This document shows, piece by piece, positions 9,525 to 17,408 of a DNA stretch of 64,000 nt. Where the stretch lies: positions 3,212,857 through 3,276,856 of the forward strand of contig NZ_CP126625.1 in NCBI RefSeq assembly GCF_030219325.1, written 5' to 3'. The notes under the pieces are model-generated. The model saw nothing but the letters and a program-made list of their open reading frames with translations. It was not told the DNA's origin and did no database searches. The stretch is from Geothrix sp. (lineage in GTDB: Bacteria; Acidobacteriota; Holophagae; Holophagales; Holophagaceae). Positions within the stretch are counted from its first letter, which is position 1, and each line of letters starts with the position of its first letter. The translations under genes and the position numbers were made by a program.

Positions 9525-11015
9525 GTGAACGCAGCCGAAGCCAATTCCACTCCTGCCACCGCCATGCTGGAAGACGGGCGCCTGTCCTTCGGAGAGAAGG
9601 TGGGCTACGCCCTGGGCGATGCCGCCTCCAACTTCTATTGGAAGACGTTTGAGTTCTTCATCATCTTCTTCTATACCGACGTGTTCGGCATCTCCGCCGG
9701 AGCCGTCGGCACCATGATGCTGGTGACCCGGGTCATGGACGCCGTGGCCGATCCGGTCATGGGAACCATCGCGGACCGCACCAAGACCCGCTGGGGGCAT
9801 TTCCGGCCTTACGTGCTCTGGTTCGCCATCCCGCTGGCCGGTGCGGGGGTGCTCACCTTCACGACCCCCAGCCTCGGCGGAGGGGCCAAGCTCCTCTACG
9901 CCTATGCGACCTACTGTCTCCTGATGCTCCTCTACACCGCGGTGAACATCCCCTACAGCGCCCTGCTCGGCGTCATGACGCCCAACTCGAAGGAGCGCAC
10001 CTCCCTGGCCTCCTTCCGGTTCGTCGGGGCCTTTTCCGTGGCGGTCCTGGTGCAGTACTGCACGCCCAGCCTGGCCCAGTGGTTCGGGATGTCATCGGCC
10101 CTGCGTGCCCAGCACAGCTTCCTGGCCCACCCCATCGACTGGGTGCGCTGGTTCCTCTCCCGGGACTTCCTCACCCTGCCCTCCGACCCGGCCAAGGGGT
10201 GGCAGATGACCATGGTCCTGTACGGCGCCTTCGCAGTCGTCCTCCTGATCCTCTGCTTCGCCACCACCCACGAGCGGGTCACTCCGCCCGAGGACCAGAG
10301 CCCGGACTTCAAGGAGGACCTGAAGAGCATGCTCACGAGCCGCGCCTTCGTGGTGATGCTCGGGGTCCTGATCATCATGATCATGTCCTTCGTGCTCAGG
10401 GGCTCGGTCTCGGCCTACTACTTCAAGTACTACGTCCAGCGCAACGACCTCCTCGGCCCCTTCCTGGTGGCCAACGCCCTGGCCTTCCTGGCGGCGGTGG
10501 TCATCACGCCCACCATCGCCCGGCACTTTGACAAGAAGACCCTGTTCATCGCCGCCATCGGCATCGGCGGCCTCATCATCGGCGGCTTCTGGCTGGCCAA
10601 GCCCACGGACATCGGGCTCATGTTCGGCCTGCAGATCCTCGCCAGCTTCATCATCGGGTTCAACTCGCCCCTGGTCTGGGCCATGTTCGCGGACACCGCC
10701 GACGACGCCGAGTGGCGCCTGGGGCGCCGGAACACGGGGCTGGTCTTCGCTTCGGCCGTTTTCGGCATGAAGATCGGGCTGGCCCTGGGTGCCTGGGTGA
10801 CGGGGCTCCTGCTGACCGGCTTCGGTTACCTCGCCAACCAGGAGCAGTCGGCCACCTCGCTGCTGGGCATCCGGCTCTCCATGAGCCTGATCCCCGCCCT
10901 GATGCTGGTGGTGGCTGCCGTCCTCATGAGGGCCTACCCCCTCGATGACCAGAAGATGGTCCAGATTGAGAAGGACCTGGCCAGCCGCAAGAAGGGGCTC
11001 GAAGGCGAGGCCTGA
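9525..11015 (+). CDS. GPH-family sugar:cation symporter (MFS superfamily)
   Basis: Product of 496 residues with about 12 hydrophobic segments. The signature DAVADPVMGTIADRTKTRWG after the second segment identifies the glycoside-pentoside-hexuronide:cation symporter family. GTG at 9525 was chosen because it has GGGGG seven bases upstream and gives a normal family length; ATG at 9564 is an alternative. Given its neighbours, it probably imports gluco-oligosaccharides (laminari-type) across the inner membrane. Its stop overlaps the start of the phosphorylase gene (TGATG), suggesting translational coupling of import and phosphorolysis. Confidence 0.87.
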   Translation: MNAAEANSTPATAMLEDGRLSFGEKVGYALGDAASNFYWKTFEFFIIFFYTDVFGISAGAVGTMMLVTRVMDAVADPVMGTIADRTKTRWGHFRPYVLWFAIPLAGAGVLTFTTPSLGGGAKLLYAYATYCLLMLLYTAVNIPYSALLGVMTPNSKERTSLASFRFVGAFSVAVLVQYCTPSLAQWFGMSSALRAQHSFLAHPIDWVRWFLSRDFLTLPSDPAKGWQMTMVLYGAFAVVLLILCFATTHERVTPPEDQSPDFKEDLKSMLTSRAFVVMLGVLIIMIMSFVLRGSVSAYYFKYYVQRNDLLGPFLVANALAFLAAVVITPTIARHFDKKTLFIAAIGIGGLIIGGFWLAKPTDIGLMFGLQILASFIIGFNSPLVWAMFADTADDAEWRLGRRNTGLVFASAVFGMKIGLALGAWVTGLLLTGFGYLANQEQSATSLLGIRLSMSLIPALMLVVAAVLMRAYPLDDQKMVQIEKDLASRKKGLEGEA

Positions 11016-14000
11016 TGGATCCACGGAGAGATGAGCGTATGCCAGCCACCCATGCAGCAGATGCAACCCTGAAGCACCCCGGCTCGCCGGCCGAGGGCTC
11101 CATCGTGGAATTCGAAGGCGAATCCTATTACCGCATCACCAACCACGACGCGATGGCGCCCTTCTTCATGAGTCTGGTGAGCGACTCGGACCACTGGCTC
11201 TTCATCTCGAGCAATGGCGCCCTCACGGCCGGGCGGAAGGATGCGGAGCACGCGCTCTTCCCCTACTACACCGACGACCGGATCCATGACAGCCAGGATC
11301 AGACCGGCAGCCTGACCCTCTTCCGCATCACGCGCCGGGAGCGGACCTTTCTCTGGGAACCCTTCAGCCAGCGGCTTGAGGGGCTGTACCAGGTCACCCG
11401 CAGCCTGTACAAAAGCGTCCATGGCAACAAGATCCTGTTCGAAGAGGCCAACCACGACCTGGGCCTCACCTTCCGCTATGCGTGGATGAACAGCGAGCGC
11501 TTCGGGTTCGTCCGACGGGCGATGCTCACCAACCAGGGGGACGACGAGGTCCATGTCCTGCTCGTCGATGGCATCCAGAACGTCCTGCCTGCGGGGGTCG
11601 AGCGGCGCTTCCAGGTGGAGTTCAGCACCCTCGTCGACGGGTACAAGCGCACGGAGCTGATCAGGCCCTCGGGCCTCGCCCTCTTCCGCCTCAGCTCGGT
11701 ACCCGTGGACAAGCCCGAGCCGAGCGAGGCCCTGCGGGTCAACCTGGCCTGGTCCACCGGGCTGGAGCCTGCCCAGCGCCTGCTCTCCACCACTCAGCTC
11801 AAGGCCTTCCGGCTGGGGGCGACGCTTCGCGAGGAAAGCGACATCCGTGGGCAGCGTGGCGCCTACCTCCTGCACGGTGGCTTTCCCCTGGGCGGAGGCG
11901 AACAGAAGGACTGGCTCGTCGTGGCGGAGCTCAACCAGGACGCCACGGCGGTCGTCGCCCTGAAGCATCGCCTGGAGTCCGAATCCAGCCTGAAGGCTGA
12001 GGTCCTGAGTGATGTCGCCAGAGGCACCCGGAACCTGCTGCGGATCGTGGCCTGTTCCGACGGACTCCAGCTGACGGGCGACCCGTTGAACGCCCAGCGG
12101 CATTTCTCGAACACCCTGTTCAACCTCTTGCGGGGCGGCGTTCCCGACGATGGCTACCGGATCTCCCGCAGCGACCTGGCGTCCTTCCTGGCCCAATCGA
12201 ACAAGACGGTGGCCCGGCGGCATGCGCTGTTCCTGGAGCAGCTCCCGGACCACCTGCAGCACCGTGACCTGATCGACCGGGTGACCGCCCTGGGCGATCT
12301 GGACCTCGAGCGGCTCACCAAGGAGTACCTGCCCCTCACCTTCAGCCGCCGACACGGGGATCCCAGCCGGCCCTGGAACAGCTTCTCCATCGAGGTGAAG
12401 GACGAGTGGGGCGAGAAGATCCTCAACTACGAGGGCAACTGGCGGGACATCTTCCAGAACTGGGAGGCCCTGGGCCATTCCTTTCCCGGTTTTCTGGAGA
12501 GCATGATCTTCAAGTTCGCCGACTGCTCGACGGTGGATGGCCACAACCCCTACCGCCTCATGCGGATCGGCTTCGACTGGGAAGTGAGCGATCCCCAGGA
12601 TCCCTGGTCCTTCATCGGCTACTGGGGCGATCACCAGGTGATCTACCTGCTCAAGCTGCTGGAGGCCTCTCGACGCTTCGACCCAGGCCTGCTGACGGGC
12701 CTGCTGGACCGACCGATCTTCACCTATGCCAATGTCCCCTACCGCATCAAGCCCTACCAGGACATGCTCGCCAACCCTCACGACACCATCGCCTTCGACG
12801 CGGCGGCTCACGAGGAGGCGATGGCACGGGCGAAGGCCCTGGGAGCGGATGGCCTCGCCGTGCTGGGCGCCCAGGGGACGGTCCTCCGGGCCAGCCTGGC
12901 CGAGAAGCTCCTGCTGGTAGCCCTCTCCAAGCTGGCGAATTACGTCCCGGAGGCCGGGATCTGGATGAACACCCAGCGACCCGAGTGGAACGACGCCAAC
13001 AACGCCCTGGTGGGCTACGGCGTGTCCATGGTGACCCTCTACTACCTTCGCCGGTACCTGGCCTTCTGCCGGGAGCTCCTGCCGGAAGCGCCCGGGGGAT
13101 GGCTCGAGCTGGCGGAGGAGCTCCACAGATTCCTGGAGGACGTGGATCGCGCCCTCGCCGGGCATCCACCGACGCCCGGCCAGGCCATCTCCAACTGTGA
13201 GCGGAAACAGGTCCTGGATGCACTGGGGCAGGCCGGCACGGTCTATCGGACCGAGATCTATGACCGGGGGTTCTCGGGATCCAGGGTCCAGGTGCCCGTG
13301 GAGCGCCTCCTCGGCTTCCTGAATGGGGCGCTGGAGCACATCGACCACGCCATCCGGCTGAACCTGCGGCCCGACGGCCTCTACCATTCGTACCACGTGA
13401 TGAAAGTCGTCGGGGACGGGATCGAGATCCGCCCGCTCTACGAGATGCTGGAAGGCCAGGTGGCCGTGCTCAGCTCCGGCGTCCTGTCGGGAGAGGCGTC
13501 CGTGGCCGTGCTGGATGCCCTGCGGTCGAGCCAGCTCTACCGGACCGACCAGGCCAGCTACCTCCTCTACCCGGACCGTCCCCTGCCCCACTTCCTGGAC
13601 AAGAACATTCTCCCGGCCCAGGCCGTCGCCTGTTCGCCGCTGCTGACAACGCTCCTGGCCGATGGGAATGAGCGTCTCGTGACCCGGGATGTCGAGGGCC
13701 AAGTCCACTTCAATGCCGACTTCAGGAATGTCTCGCACCTTCGGGAGGCACTGGACAGGCTGAAGCATGGTCCCTACCGGAGCATGGCGGAAACCGAGGA
13801 AGCCCAGCTGCTGGCCCTCTATGAGCAGGTCTTCGACCACCAGTCCTTCACAGGACGCTCTGGAACCTTCTACAAGTACGAAGGCCTGGGTTGTATCTAC
13901 TGGCACATGGTGTCGAAGCTGCTCCTGGCCGTCGACGAGACGAGGCAGCGCACCTGCGATGAGTCCCAGGCCGTCGGGGACCGTCTCAGCGCGCACTACC

Positions 14001-14497
14001 GGGCCATCCGCGAGGGGCTGGGAAGCCACAAGCCGCCCTCCCTGCATGGGGCGATTCCCATCGACCCCTACTCGCACACAACCGGGTTCGCCGGCGCCCA
14101 GCAGCCCGGCATGACAGGTCAGGTCAAGGAGGACATCCTCAGCCGCCTGGGCGAGATGGGAGTTCAAGTCTCGCAGGGGCGCATCGCCTTCCTGCCCTGG
14201 CTCATACGTGACGGAGAGTTCCTGAGCCAACGTGCCAGATTCGCCTTCCTGGACGTGGAAGGTCACCCTGAACACCTGGACCTTGAGCCAGGAACGTTTG
14301 CCTTCACGCTCTGCCAGGTTCCGGTCGTGATCCACCGGTCTGGGTCCCCTGGCATCCAGGTCCTCCGCCAGGCAGGTTCCGTGGATGTTGTGGAGGGACT
14401 GCGGCTGGACACTGATGCCAGCAAGGCCATCTTCAGTCGCAGCGGTGAGGTCAGGCGGCTGGAGGTCTGCCTGGGCCGCTCCAACCCTGGCTCCTGA
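11015..14497 (+). CDS. GH94-clan glycoside phosphorylase, probably GH149/GH161-type beta-1,3-glucan phosphorylase
   Basis: Product of 1160 residues, much longer than classical GH94 cellobiose phosphorylases (about 800) but close to GH149 and GH161 beta-1,3-glucan phosphorylases. The candidate catalytic Asp lies in RPEWNDANNALVGYG (about residue 660), matching the WNDA motif of the GH94 clan. Near residue 1018, YSHTTGFAGAQQPGMTGQ may form the phosphate/substrate site. There is no signal peptide, so it is cytoplasmic. Predicted reaction: beta-1,3-glucan(n) + phosphate to glucan(n-1) + glucose-1-phosphate. The start is either ATG 11015, overlapping the symporter stop, or ATG 11039 (eight codons later), which has GGAGAG before it. 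The exact GH family is inferred from length, motifs and neighbours. Confidence 0.72.
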   Translation: MDPRRDERMPATHAADATLKHPGSPAEGSIVEFEGESYYRITNHDAMAPFFMSLVSDSDHWLFISSNGALTAGRKDAEHALFPYYTDDRIHDSQDQTGSLTLFRITRRERTFLWEPFSQRLEGLYQVTRSLYKSVHGNKILFEEANHDLGLTFRYAWMNSERFGFVRRAMLTNQGDDEVHVLLVDGIQNVLPAGVERRFQVEFSTLVDGYKRTELIRPSGLALFRLSSVPVDKPEPSEALRVNLAWSTGLEPAQRLLSTTQLKAFRLGATLREESDIRGQRGAYLLHGGFPLGGGEQKDWLVVAELNQDATAVVALKHRLESESSLKAEVLSDVARGTRNLLRIVACSDGLQLTGDPLNAQRHFSNTLFNLLRGGVPDDGYRISRSDLASFLAQSNKTVARRHALFLEQLPDHLQHRDLIDRVTALGDLDLERLTKEYLPLTFSRRHGDPSRPWNSFSIEVKDEWGEKILNYEGNWRDIFQNWEALGHSFPGFLESMIFKFADCSTVDGHNPYRLMRIGFDWEVSDPQDPWSFIGYWGDHQVIYLLKLLEASRRFDPGLLTGLLDRPIFTYANVPYRIKPYQDMLANPHDTIAFDAAAHEEAMARAKALGADGLAVLGAQGTVLRASLAEKLLLVALSKLANYVPEAGIWMNTQRPEWNDANNALVGYGVSMVTLYYLRRYLAFCRELLPEAPGGWLELAEELHRFLEDVDRALAGHPPTPGQAISNCERKQVLDALGQAGTVYRTEIYDRGFSGSRVQVPVERLLGFLNGALEHIDHAIRLNLRPDGLYHSYHVMKVVGDGIEIRPLYEMLEGQVAVLSSGVLSGEASVAVLDALRSSQLYRTDQASYLLYPDRPLPHFLDKNILPAQAVACSPLLTTLLADGNERLVTRDVEGQVHFNADFRNVSHLREALDRLKHGPYRSMAETEEAQLLALYEQVFDHQSFTGRSGTFYKYEGLGCIYWHMVSKLLLAVDETRQRTCDESQAVGDRLSAHYRAIREGLGSHKPPSLHGAIPIDPYSHTTGFAGAQQPGMTGQVKEDILSRLGEMGVQVSQGRIAFLPWLIRDGEFLSQRARFAFLDVEGHPEHLDLEPGTFAFTLCQVPVVIHRSGSPGIQVLRQAGSVDVVEGLRLDTDASKAIFSRSGEVRRLEVCLGRSNPGS

Positions 14498-14761
14498 GCC
14501 AGAACAAACTTGTACAGGACGCACAAATCGTGAGAAGACGCGGTTCAGACATCGTGATCCGCTGCGATTCCCCGATGGGCTTGTCCTGACCCATGGCAAG
14601 CAGGGGACGAGTGATCCGGTGGATTGCGATCGGGAGGGGAGGACGCGCCCGAGTGGGATTCGTGAGTGGCACCACCAGCCGAGCCACAGCTCCAGAGGTA
14701 GGGGCGGTCCATGCTTCCGTTCCCGGTCATAATCTGGTCCACAGTACAGGAAGGAGTCGTC
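14498..14761. promoter_or_regulatory. Intergenic region before the molybdenum hydroxylase genes
   Basis: 264 bases without a supported gene. CATAAT at 14728-14733 is a possible -10 box 28 bases before the next start, but no good -35 is seen. Two loosely similar stretches (GTGATCCG followed by GCGAT) occur around 14553 and 14619. No terminator-like hairpin with a T-run follows the phosphorylase gene. Confidence 0.25.
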
Positions 14762-15235
14762 ATGGCCAGGACCCTTTCGTTCACGCTGAATGGCAAGCAG
14801 GTGGTCACAACCGCCGACGGCTCGCGCATGCTGGCCTGTGTGCTGCGCGAGGACCTGGCCCTCACTGGCACCAAGATCGGCTGCGGGCAGGGTCTCTGCG
14901 GCGCCTGCACGGTGCTCGTCGACGGGGAGGCCGTGCGCTCCTGCTCCACGCCGCTGGCCGCCGTGGCGGGCAAGGCGGTGCTCACCATCGAAGGCCTGGG
15001 CCTGCAGGAGAAGCTCCACCCCGTGCAGGAGGCCTTCCTGGATCACCACGCCTTCCAGTGCGGCTTCTGCACCCCGGGCATGATCCTCAGCGCCTACGCG
15101 CTGCTGAAGAAGACACCCAGACCGGATCGCCGTCAGGTGGCCGAGGCCCTGGATGGCAACCTCTGCCGCTGCGGCGCCCACGTGCGGATCCTGGCCGCGG
15201 TCGAAGCCGCCGCCCAGAAGGGAGGTGCCAAATGA
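14762..15235 (+). CDS. (2Fe-2S) small subunit of a xanthine dehydrogenase-family hydroxylase (IorA-like)
   Basis: Product of 157 residues carrying both iron-sulfur clusters of molybdenum hydroxylases: a plant-ferredoxin-type site CGQGLCGACTVLVDGEAVRSC, written here as Cys-x4-Cys-x2-Cys-x11-Cys near residues 40-61, and a C-terminal helical site with FQCGFCTPGM and GNLCRCGAH. It passes electrons from the molybdenum site to an acceptor. The ATG at 14762 follows GGAAGGAG, a strong site; an earlier in-frame ATG at 14711 is poorer. The gene ends with an ATGA overlap into a 25-codon ORF, then the large subunit. As in isoquinoline 1-oxidoreductase-type enzymes, no FAD subunit gene is next to it. Confidence 0.9.
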   Translation: MARTLSFTLNGKQVVTTADGSRMLACVLREDLALTGTKIGCGQGLCGACTVLVDGEAVRSCSTPLAAVAGKAVLTIEGLGLQEKLHPVQEAFLDHHAFQCGFCTPGMILSAYALLKKTPRPDRRQVAEALDGNLCRCGAHVRILAAVEAAAQKGGAK

Positions 15236-15309
15236 GGCCGGAGCAGGAGCGGAGGGCCACGGGCCGAAGGCCCGCCCCGCAGGGGTTTGGCGTAGGAGGT
15301 GCCAAATGA
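15221..15309 (+). repeat. Direct repeat GGAGGTGCCAAATGA flanking a two-hairpin insert
   Basis: The 15-base sequence GGAGGTGCCAAATGA occurs at 15221-15235 and again, identically, at 15295-15309. Each copy supplies a ribosome-binding site and an ATGA stop/start. Between them lie a perfect hairpin, CGGGCC-GAA-GGCCCG at 15260-15274, and a smaller one, CCCC-GCA-GGGG at 15275-15285. The layout resembles a small palindromic (REP-like) element that duplicated the intercistronic junction. Confidence 0.75.
15232..15309 (+). CDS. 25-residue micro-ORF wedged between hydroxylase subunits
   Basis: ATG at 15232 overlaps the small-subunit stop (ATGA) and TGA at 15307-15309 overlaps the large-subunit ATG at 15306 (ATGA again). 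GGAGG lies six bases before its start. The predicted peptide starts MRPEQERRATGRR, is Arg/Gly/Pro-rich and ends GGAK, the same as the small-subunit tail, because the junction is duplicated. It has no recognisable domain or membrane segment. It may be translated simply to keep coupling across an inserted palindrome rather than to make a functional peptide. Confidence 0.5.
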   Translation: MRPEQERRATGRRPAPQGFGVGGAK

Positions 15310-17408
15310 ACCGGCGCGACTTCCTCAAGGCCACGGGGGCCGTGGGCCTCTTCGTCACCTTCCCCATCCCGGCTTTTTCGCAGGAACCTGAGAAGATCCC
15401 CAACGACGTGCCCGAGTACCCCAAGGACTTCAACGCCTACCTCAAGATCGGGCCCGATGGCCGCGTGGGCTGCTTCGTGGGGAAGATCGAGATGGGCCAG
15501 GGCAACATGACGGCCCTCGCCATGCTGGCGGCCGAAGAGCTGGATGTGCCGCTGGATCAGGTGGACATGCTCATGGGCGACACGGACCTCTGCCCCTGGG
15601 ATGGCGGCACCTGGGGCTCCCTCAGCATCTGGCAGTTCGGTCCCGTGCTGCGGGGCGCCGCCGCCGAGGCCAGGGCCGTGCTGATCCAGATGGCCTCGGA
15701 GCGGCTGGGCATCGCCGCCGAACGCCTCCAGGTGAAGGCTGGCGTGGTGTCGTCGCTGGGCGACCCTTCGAAGCGCGTGTCCTATGGCGAACTGGTGCAG
15801 GGCAAACGGATCGAGCGGCACCTGAAGGACGTGAAGGTGAAGCCCGTGGCCGAGTTCACGCTGGTGGGCCAGGAGGTGCCTCGCAAGGATGGCCGGCTGA
15901 AGGTCACGGGCGGCGCCAAGTACACCGCCGACATCGTGCCCGAAGGCACCCTGTACGCCGCCATCCTCCGTCCACCGGCGCACGGCGCCAAGCTGCTGTC
16001 CGTGGATGTCTCCGCCGCCGAGAGGCTGCCGGGGGTGAAGGTGATCCAGGCCGGCGACCTGGTGGCCGCCCTGCACGCGCACAGCGACCAGGCTCGCGAG
16101 GCCCTCGGCCAGATCAAGGCCACGTTCCAGCCCTCACCCTCCACGCTGACTAACGACAACATCTTCGACCACCTGCTCAAGGCCGCACCGCCCGCACGGC
16201 AGCTGGCCGCCAAGGGCGACCTAAAAGCGGGCGAGGCTTCCGCCATCCACCAGGTCGAGGCCACCTACCTGGACAACTACATCGCCCACGCGCCCATGGA
16301 GCCCCACACGGCCGTGGCCCAGTGGGAGAGGGGCAAACTCACGGTGTGGGCCTCCACCCAGGCACCCTTCCTGCTGCGGGGGATGCTGGCCAAGGCCCAC
16401 GGCTTGTCCGCCCGGCAGGTGCGCGTCATCACGCCCTTCCTGGGCGGCGGCTTCGGGGGCAAGGGCATGGCCCCCCAGGCCCTTGAAGCGGCGCGACTGG
16501 CCAAGGCGGCGGGCTGCCCGGTGCAGGTCACCTGGAGCCGCAAGGAGGAGTTCTTCCTCGACAGCTTCCGCCCCGCGGGCGTCGTGAAGATCCGCTCCGG
16601 CCTCACGAAGGAGGGGAGGATCGCCTTCTGGGAGCACCAGGTCACCGCCGCGGGCGAATCCGAGGCGGAGACCATGTACGACATCCCGCACCAGCGCAGC
16701 ACCTCCGCCGGCACCTGGATGGGGGGCAACCCCGCCGGGTTCCACCCCTTCGCGGTGGGCGCCTGGCGGGCCCCGGCGGCCAACACCAACGTGTTCGCCA
16801 AGGAATCCCACATGGACATGCTGGCCGCCAAGGCGGGCGTGGACCCGCTGGAGTTCCGCCTCCGCCACGTGAAGGATCCCCGCATGGTCACCGTGCTGAA
16901 GGCCGCCGAGAAGGCCTTCGGGTGGACCCGCAAGCCCGGCCCCAGCGGCCGGGGCTTCGGCTTGGCCTGCGTCAACCACCGCAGCACCCTGGTGGCCGCC
17001 ATGGCTGAAGTGGCCGTGGACAGGAAGACCGGGGAAGTGAAGGTCAAGCGCGTGGTGATGGCGCAGGACATGGGGGTGGTGGTGCATCCCGACGGCGCCC
17101 GCCAGCAGGTGGAGGGCTGCGTCACCATGGGCCTGGGCTACAGCCTCTACGAGCAGATCCGCTTCAGGAACGGCCAGGTCCTCGACGAGAACTTCGACAC
17201 GTACCAGCTGCCCCGCTTCTCCCAGATGCCCACCATCGAGACCATCCTCATCCCCAACCCGGACGTCCCGGCCCAGGGGGGCGGTGAGCCCGCCATCGTC
17301 GTCATGGGCGCCCTCATCGCCAACGCCATCCACGACGCCATCGGCGTGCGCATGCTGCAGATGCCCATGACGCCGGAGCGGATCAAGCAGGCGCTTGAGA
17401 GGGCCTGA
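15306..17408 (+). CDS. Molybdopterin-binding large subunit of a xanthine dehydrogenase-family hydroxylase (IorB-like)
   Basis: Product of 700 residues with an N-terminal Tat signal (MNRRDFLKATGAVGLF), so the mature enzyme acts in the periplasm, the small subunit presumably travelling with it. It contains VGKIEMGQGNMTALAML near residue 57, FLGGGFGGKG near 377 for the molybdopterin, and near the C-terminus the GGGEPA motif with the catalytic Glu. Length and the Tat signal match the isoquinoline 1-oxidoreductase beta-type group, which oxidises aldehydes or N-heterocycles; the real substrate cannot be told. AGGAGGT precedes the start. No maturation gene (XdhC-like) or FAD subunit is adjacent. Confidence 0.88.
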   Translation: MNRRDFLKATGAVGLFVTFPIPAFSQEPEKIPNDVPEYPKDFNAYLKIGPDGRVGCFVGKIEMGQGNMTALAMLAAEELDVPLDQVDMLMGDTDLCPWDGGTWGSLSIWQFGPVLRGAAAEARAVLIQMASERLGIAAERLQVKAGVVSSLGDPSKRVSYGELVQGKRIERHLKDVKVKPVAEFTLVGQEVPRKDGRLKVTGGAKYTADIVPEGTLYAAILRPPAHGAKLLSVDVSAAERLPGVKVIQAGDLVAALHAHSDQAREALGQIKATFQPSPSTLTNDNIFDHLLKAAPPARQLAAKGDLKAGEASAIHQVEATYLDNYIAHAPMEPHTAVAQWERGKLTVWASTQAPFLLRGMLAKAHGLSARQVRVITPFLGGGFGGKGMAPQALEAARLAKAAGCPVQVTWSRKEEFFLDSFRPAGVVKIRSGLTKEGRIAFWEHQVTAAGESEAETMYDIPHQRSTSAGTWMGGNPAGFHPFAVGAWRAPAANTNVFAKESHMDMLAAKAGVDPLEFRLRHVKDPRMVTVLKAAEKAFGWTRKPGPSGRGFGLACVNHRSTLVAAMAEVAVDRKTGEVKVKRVVMAQDMGVVVHPDGARQQVEGCVTMGLGYSLYEQIRFRNGQVLDENFDTYQLPRFSQMPTIETILIPNPDVPAQGGGEPAIVVMGALIANAIHDAIGVRMLQMPMTPERIKQALERA

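Follow-up and report, generated by a model that had tools for sequence, protein, structure and literature searches.

A probable start-codon cassette from a palindromic repeat family of Holophagaceae at a subunit junction in Geothrix

The DNA analysed here is a window of 64,000 nucleotides from Geothrix sp. In it, a 25-codon open reading frame stands between a small-subunit gene and a large-subunit gene, inside a stop/start junction that occurs twice. The locus raises the question of whether this frame is a gene, a control device, or a piece of mobile DNA, and of how it came to lie between two subunits.

The junction in the window

The features of the junction all lie on the plus strand. The upstream gene (14762..15235) encodes, by its translation, the [2Fe-2S] small subunit of a molybdopterin oxidoreductase with the C-terminus KGGAK (Pfam Fer2_2, 2.2e-32). 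The downstream gene (15306..17408) encodes a molybdopterin-binding large subunit with a TAT signal (translation; Pfam MoCoBD_2, 2.2e-51, and MoCoBD_1, 1.2e-44). The 15 bases GGAGGTGCCAAATGA occur exactly at 15221-15235, where they end the small subunit, and again at 15295-15309, where they overlap the start of the large subunit, a spacing of 74 bases. At up to two mismatches the window has one further match, with 0.08 expected from shuffles, and the pair is not due to chance. The repeat, its spacing, and the 25-codon frame, all reported by the first-pass annotation, are real.

Judged against empty junctions, the net insertion is a unit of 74 bases (15235..15308) with its own ATG at its end, and not the insert of 57 bases first proposed. 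The family model described below matches 15232-15309 (nhmmer, E 1.7e-11). The stretch 15221..15235, which overlaps the small-subunit stop, comprises the native Shine-Dalgarno and the original large-subunit start (ATG at 15232-15234), and the empty sites of relatives keep GGGAGGTG..RTG here. This ATG is now the start of the mini-ORF (15232..15309), which reads MRPEQERRATGRRPAPQGFGVGGAK in a frame that is open family-wide and ends in ATGA, its stop overlapping the next start. The large subunit now appears to start at the ATG of the element.

The unit is predicted to form four hairpins. H0 (15236..15257; family columns 5-8 with 23-26) is imperfect in the window copy and comes from covariation and RNAalifold. 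Folding and covariation point to H1 (CGGGCC-GAA-GGCCCG, 15260..15274), which is one column off the family majority, H2 (CCCC-GCA-GGGG, 15275..15285), and H3 (TTTGGCGT-AGGAG-GTGCCAAA, 15286..15306; columns 55-62 with 68-75). In H3 the loop is a second Shine-Dalgarno, and the start codon contributes its first base (15306) to the stem. The two hairpins described earlier are both present, but the count was too low, the third being H3 with this second Shine-Dalgarno. Taken alone, the window copy has an ordinary folding energy (z -1.06, matched by 29 of 200 shuffles), so the structure is argued from the family alignment. The window also contains an open frame of 1499 codons on the minus strand (10934-15433), antisense to the genes of the annotated strand, which is probably a GC-rich artefact.

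The repeat family and its reading frame

A 13-base core with at most one mismatch occurs at 30 places in the 3.73 Mb genome and at 33 in the reversed control, and its count is not enriched. The family was revealed by two places where pairs of the core have a spacing of exactly 74 bases. Both hold tandem units, one before an AAA ATPase gene and the other before a ThiS/MoaD-like gene, and the peptides of these units, MSPKQERRATLPQAKPAGRGTGGAV and MSTQQERRATLAKPKPAGRGAGGDA, are comparable to that of the window. As a query, the whole 89-base stretch has a full-length match only to itself and weak pieces elsewhere. A sequence-only model built from 11 units finds 16 matches under E 0.01 in the same genome. 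The insert had been read as a palindromic repeat element in a stop/start junction, to be sought genome-wide. That reading was right, and the layout would keep the coupling. The insert is not unique, and belongs to a dispersed family with copies in 46 of 47 same-genus genomes.

With a structured model, copies are found in 57 of 77 genomes of Holophagaceae, a family of Acidobacteria from soil and groundwater. Copy numbers are high in G024, G029, and G031 and low in G035 and G046. A thinner draw of the phylum, with 12 candidates scored per genome and counts that are lower bounds, gives matches in at least 31 of 396 genomes, 30 from Holophagaceae and one from outside (4% contaminated). The window subtype of H1 is found in four records, solely at such small/large-subunit junctions, and the named relatives that carry it are Holophagaceae MAGs and one 'Acidobacteria bacterium' MAG. 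Rfam has no family for the repeat, with one sub-threshold match elsewhere. The plasmids searched give two weak partial matches, and the phages searched give none. The open-access literature yielded no description of the repeat in Holophagaceae, and nothing that joins MITEs with translational coupling.

The copies studied come from 80 fetched regions and the earlier loci. Repeated nhmmer hits were merged from 188 to 160 distinct matches, 133 of them full. The regions fetched were those that ranked highest by score, so these are the best-scoring copies and degenerate ones are under-represented. A unit spans one RTGA to the next. The length from RTG to TGA is exactly 78 bases in 120 of the 133 full copies, which end in RTGA (125), GTCA (5), or ATGT (3).

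The four hairpins covary in 115 distinct copies of 78 bases. Paired cells amount to 93.2%, compared with 81.5% after shuffling, double-changed cells to 245 (64.2 shuffled), and further pair types to 50 (36.3 shuffled). None of 500 shuffles is as high, and slid control structures are at most 45% paired. Because shuffles ignore relatedness, the argument lies in the size of the excess and not in the zero count. RNAalifold, unaided, predicts H0 and the greater part of both H1 and H3. The H3 loop is AGGAG in 85 of the 115 copies. The A or G that begins the next start codon (column 75) has its partner in column 55 in 113 of the 115, as C-G in 66 and U-A in 44.

The frame of the insert was said to stay open, and this holds across the family. 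The 115 copies differ from the consensus by 10.2 changes on average. They have no premature stop in frame 1, where 8.7 are expected from column resampling with base pairs kept, and nine in frame 3. Of the full copies, 114 are intact to the terminal TGA. Nineteen units are interrupted or irregular, 18 of them complete in their locus. Each of these 18 is longer than 78 bases by a multiple of 3 (27, 57, 75, 90, 123, 132, or 153). The reading frame closes at the terminal RTGA in 17 of them, and in L090 a little further on, across ATGTGCCTGA. Nine of the 18 share one 57-base insert length, so the insertion events are fewer than the copies. The left RTG is present in 112 of 120 clusters, and 95 of these stop at most 7 bases from the terminal TGA (91 exactly). 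The other 17, split by reading the chains, comprise 11 with nested inserts that stop at the next start, one in-frame fusion to the gene (L106), four that end in GTGTC without a stop there, and one that is broken (L181).

Small indels are without frame bias, since the length difference is not a multiple of 3 in 10 of the 13 full copies that depart from 78 bases. Most off-length copies still couple in layout, fuse in frame, enter the next unit, or lie within a gene. This absence of bias is in line with a selfish palindrome that inserts anywhere, the ORF being a by-product of the 74-base length, and whose copies at start codons survive as others kill. Copies within a gene in another frame (L200 and L206), and 4 of 120 clusters counted as lacking the left RTG, agree with it as well. 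Such a by-product would nevertheless hardly keep its frame through this number of changes with no premature stop, or in every complete nested or irregular copy. Survivor bias and coupling are compatible, the conflict being confined to the by-product part, and the reading as a whole is rather unlikely.

Much more improbable is a conserved small protein gene that was duplicated and spread, with a functional peptide of 25 residues. A pattern M-S-x-K-Q-E-R-x-A-T...G-G-A is recognisable across copies, and the codon-position entropy of the 5' part (0.44/0.33/0.62 bits) has a mild excess at the third position. In the hairpin part, however, the positions vary alike (0.69/0.57/0.62), and the sequence changes track base pairing. 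Nested inserts lengthen the peptide by 19 to 51 residues. The entropy by codon position and the lack of an NCBIfam match at E 1 led to the rejection of the peptide as a conserved protein. By these counts the frame is under selection, whereas the peptide does not look it. The idea that entry of the element produced a new gene is not borne out either, as the mini-ORF travels with the element and conservation of its peptide is not apparent.

Several copies depart from the usual form. A second palindromic subtype of 75 bases lies in frame within the H2 loop of a unit at two sites of the Geothrix genome, C1:1712216-1712368 (L131, L133, and L134), which precedes a sugar phosphomutase (glmM-like) gene, and 2246381-2246504 (L129 and L132). 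A 57-base palindrome (GAGGCTCCGCCTCGGC...) lies within H3 loops at several sites. Units in L177 (G030:C1:357534-357919), L122, L190, and L219 end in GTGTCA without the usual stop, and those of L177 form an array with a period of about 155 bases. At C1:1278347-1278423 of the Geothrix genome (L128), the unit is a C-terminal extension of a sigma-70-like protein.

Filled and empty sites

The window junction was compared at 30 loci, of which 23 are counted. L083-L088, distant paralogues and one fragment, are unread, and L071 is without a gene start. Five of the 23 are filled, namely those of the window's own genome, G024, G030, G015 with two units, and G012, and 18 are empty. A paralogue of the junction in G012 is filled too (L161). 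The distribution of filled and empty sites requires at least four changes on a tree of 16 rows. Repeated gain and an old insertion followed by several losses are equally likely, because the window subtype is met solely at such junctions. The direct repeat would allow precise loss of the unit.

Two other junctions were read at 30 fetched loci each, from 45 and 42 genomes with a match. The NADH dehydrogenase 30 kDa junction is empty at 28 loci and filled at 2, and a third filled one, in G025, is seen in L166. The left flank of the empty site L285 equals that of the filled Geothrix site up to the ATG, and the right-hand start of the filled site is the GTG of the element. The ATPase junction is evenly divided, with 15 empty loci and 15 that have one to four model pieces. 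From these empty/filled comparisons, the left RTG is the old start of the host gene and the right RTG belongs to the element. Read in this way, the unit sits on the start codon of a gene and supplies a new Shine-Dalgarno and start. The number of units at the ATPase junction (C1:2807022-2807173 in the Geothrix genome, and relatives) is variable and makes it a possible strain-typing locus; G008 has five equal-score units in a row there.

In the Geothrix genome the downstream proteins belong by Pfam to MoCoBD, AAA_28, Complex1_30kDa, ThiS, YjeF_N, PGM_PMM_I, and SPOR, and the genes so named begin at the RTG of the element. A long ORF follows the terminal RTG in 93 of 102 cases, a count whose control is weak, with 59% at other RTGAs. 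A designed subunit ratio, the other explanation offered by the first-pass annotation, is unsupported. The unit also precedes NADH dehydrogenase, ThiS-like, YjeF, sugar phosphomutase, and SPOR genes, and most relatives have their copies of the window junction without it. The same data make it improbable that the unit is a regulatory switch for tuning, with H3 as the gate of the host gene or the AGGA loops as binding sites for a CsrA-type protein. In favour of such a switch, most copies hold their Shine-Dalgarno in the loop of a covarying hairpin, and unit number varies at the ATPase junction, but the functions of the host genes are unrelated and the presence of the unit is erratic among close relatives, as the changes on the tree indicate.

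Start codons are not the sole sites of the element, because L200 and L206, one orthologous site, have the unit (near 1200-1274) in frame inside a DNA topoisomerase gene, where it is read in an unusual frame. Upstream of the left RTG, 98 distinct stretches, some of them orthologous sites, were compared. A TANNNT box begins 12 bases before the RTG in 24 of them (0.12 expected), and a Shine-Dalgarno-like string is present in 23. Since both occur, leaderless and led starts both seem to be used. The frequency of the box also suggests many leaderless mRNAs in the genus.

The exact 15-base repeat had been explained as a target duplicated by the entry of the element. Exact repeats of this length do occur at the window junction and in G024 (L060), with letters that differ between the genomes. 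In the related filled sites L062, L063, and L067, on the other hand, the two sides differ. The left flank was compared with the end of the element in 92 full copies that have no copy upstream. The two agree exactly over 3 bases in 44 copies, over 4 in 11, and over 5 in 16, which makes 71 with 3-5 bases, and over 13 or more in only 7. Two of these 7 are window-type junctions, and the rest lie behind other repeat pieces. The right-hand letters of the repeat belong to H3, and empty sites natively carry Shine-Dalgarnos of the GGGAGGTG type. Given the short family-wide match, the differing sides, and this native sequence, the long duplication is mostly a native Shine-Dalgarno that resembles the element's own beside it. 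Local conversion between the two stretches has perhaps sharpened the exact repeat; it is proposed because L060 has its own exact pair in other letters, and it would explain the exact cases equally well. A target-site duplication of 15 bases is thus extremely improbable, whereas a duplication of 3 bases, RTG or TGA, on insertion is conceivable.

Translational coupling and comparison with known elements

The insert is very probably a copy of a mobile or formerly mobile palindromic family of Holophagaceae that acts as a translationally coupled start-codon cassette. The dispersed family, the covariation, the empty and filled sites, and the constraint on the frame argue for this at the level of sequence. 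The translation of the mini-ORF, termination-reinitiation, and the mode of movement would follow the scheme set out here. The start codon of the target gene would become the start of the short ORF, whose TGA overlaps the new RTG brought by the element, with an AGGAG Shine-Dalgarno upstream in the hairpin loop. A ribosome starting at the old signal would read the mini-ORF, melt H3, stop at the TGA, and reinitiate on the host gene. An overlapping stop and start couples translation in the systems described in the passages cited (PMC6728339, PMC12548453). As terminating ribosomes would go on to reinitiate on the host gene, insertion would be nearly harmless, or tolerated, and reinitiation at the overlapping RTG would make start codons safe harbours.

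MIRU: The cited passages describe MIRUs as short dispersed repeats inserting at start codons, whose own ORF and the host gene are coupled by a -4 overlap (PMC12548453, citing Supply 1997), and which occur in variable tandem copies (PMC2734929). The Holophagaceae repeat resembles this description, being short, dispersed, at start codons, and variable in tandem, with the -4 ORF layout. Its 74-base unit lies within the 40-100 bp of a short repeat, and its 16 matches in one genome are the many dispersed copies. The internal ORF at -4 from a start codon is seen in layout in the 114 intact full copies and in the empty/filled pairs. In contrast, the host phylum is Acidobacteriota (Holophagaceae) and not mycobacteria, and the repeat has hairpin covariation that includes a start-codon base, a Shine-Dalgarno loop, and in-frame nested inserts. 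The repeat can be regarded as a MIRU-like family in another phylum, likened by its way of working and not by sequence kinship, and for that reason it is not filed as a MIRU.

RPE: Rickettsia palindromic elements are described in the cited passages as mobile palindromes whose frame stays open and which fuse into proteins (PMC2229807, PMC10969869), and those of R. conorii have ends tagged CGTC (PMC3733652). The Holophagaceae repeat is likewise an open-frame palindrome, with two copies in frame within the topoisomerase gene. In contrast, nearly all its copies close with a stop overlapping the next start, and its ends are RTGA. The topoisomerase copies are alone among the 133 full copies in lying in frame within a protein gene.

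REP/RAYT and MITE: The repeat shares with REP elements, as the cited part of PMC3733652 presents them, short palindromes that are numerous and stand in tandem groups close to coding sequence. It differs in its RTGA ends, without the GTAG tag, and in being without a cognate Y1 transposase. The Y1 transposase (PF01797) is absent from the Geothrix genome and found in 5 of 47 relatives, and no repeat copy stands beside it at the 10 loci checked. It was rejected as the mover on these grounds, and no mobilising enzyme came to light. The terminal inverted repeats and target-site duplication of a classical MITE are replaced by four internal hairpins and the short flank matches given above.

Leaderless small ORFs: The coupled leaderless small ORFs of mycobacteria, in the passages cited from PMC4633059, are likewise linked by RTGA, and their linkage is conserved rather than their peptide. 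The TANNNT boxes at the left starts of the Holophagaceae repeat add a further likeness. These small ORFs are not described as a repeat family in PMC4633059, whose text contains neither 'MIRU' nor 'interspersed'. A more specific account is offered tentatively, and is somewhat doubtful as a whole. The start-codon elements may be independent of MIRUs and have their own unrecognised mover, H3 may lock the Shine-Dalgarno and start for finishing ribosomes only, and nested palindromes may accumulate in loops under selection for frame.

The way of life of MIRUs, in which an element lands on start codons and coupling restores translation, would thus exist outside mycobacteria. The Holophagaceae alignments are deep enough to show which parts of the element are under selection. 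Natural pairs of empty and filled alleles, and a tandem series from 0 to several units before one ATPase gene, are available for measuring termination-reinitiation. The family is also a warning for these genomes, in which start sites, VNTRs, and 'proteins' of 25 residues are often made by the element.
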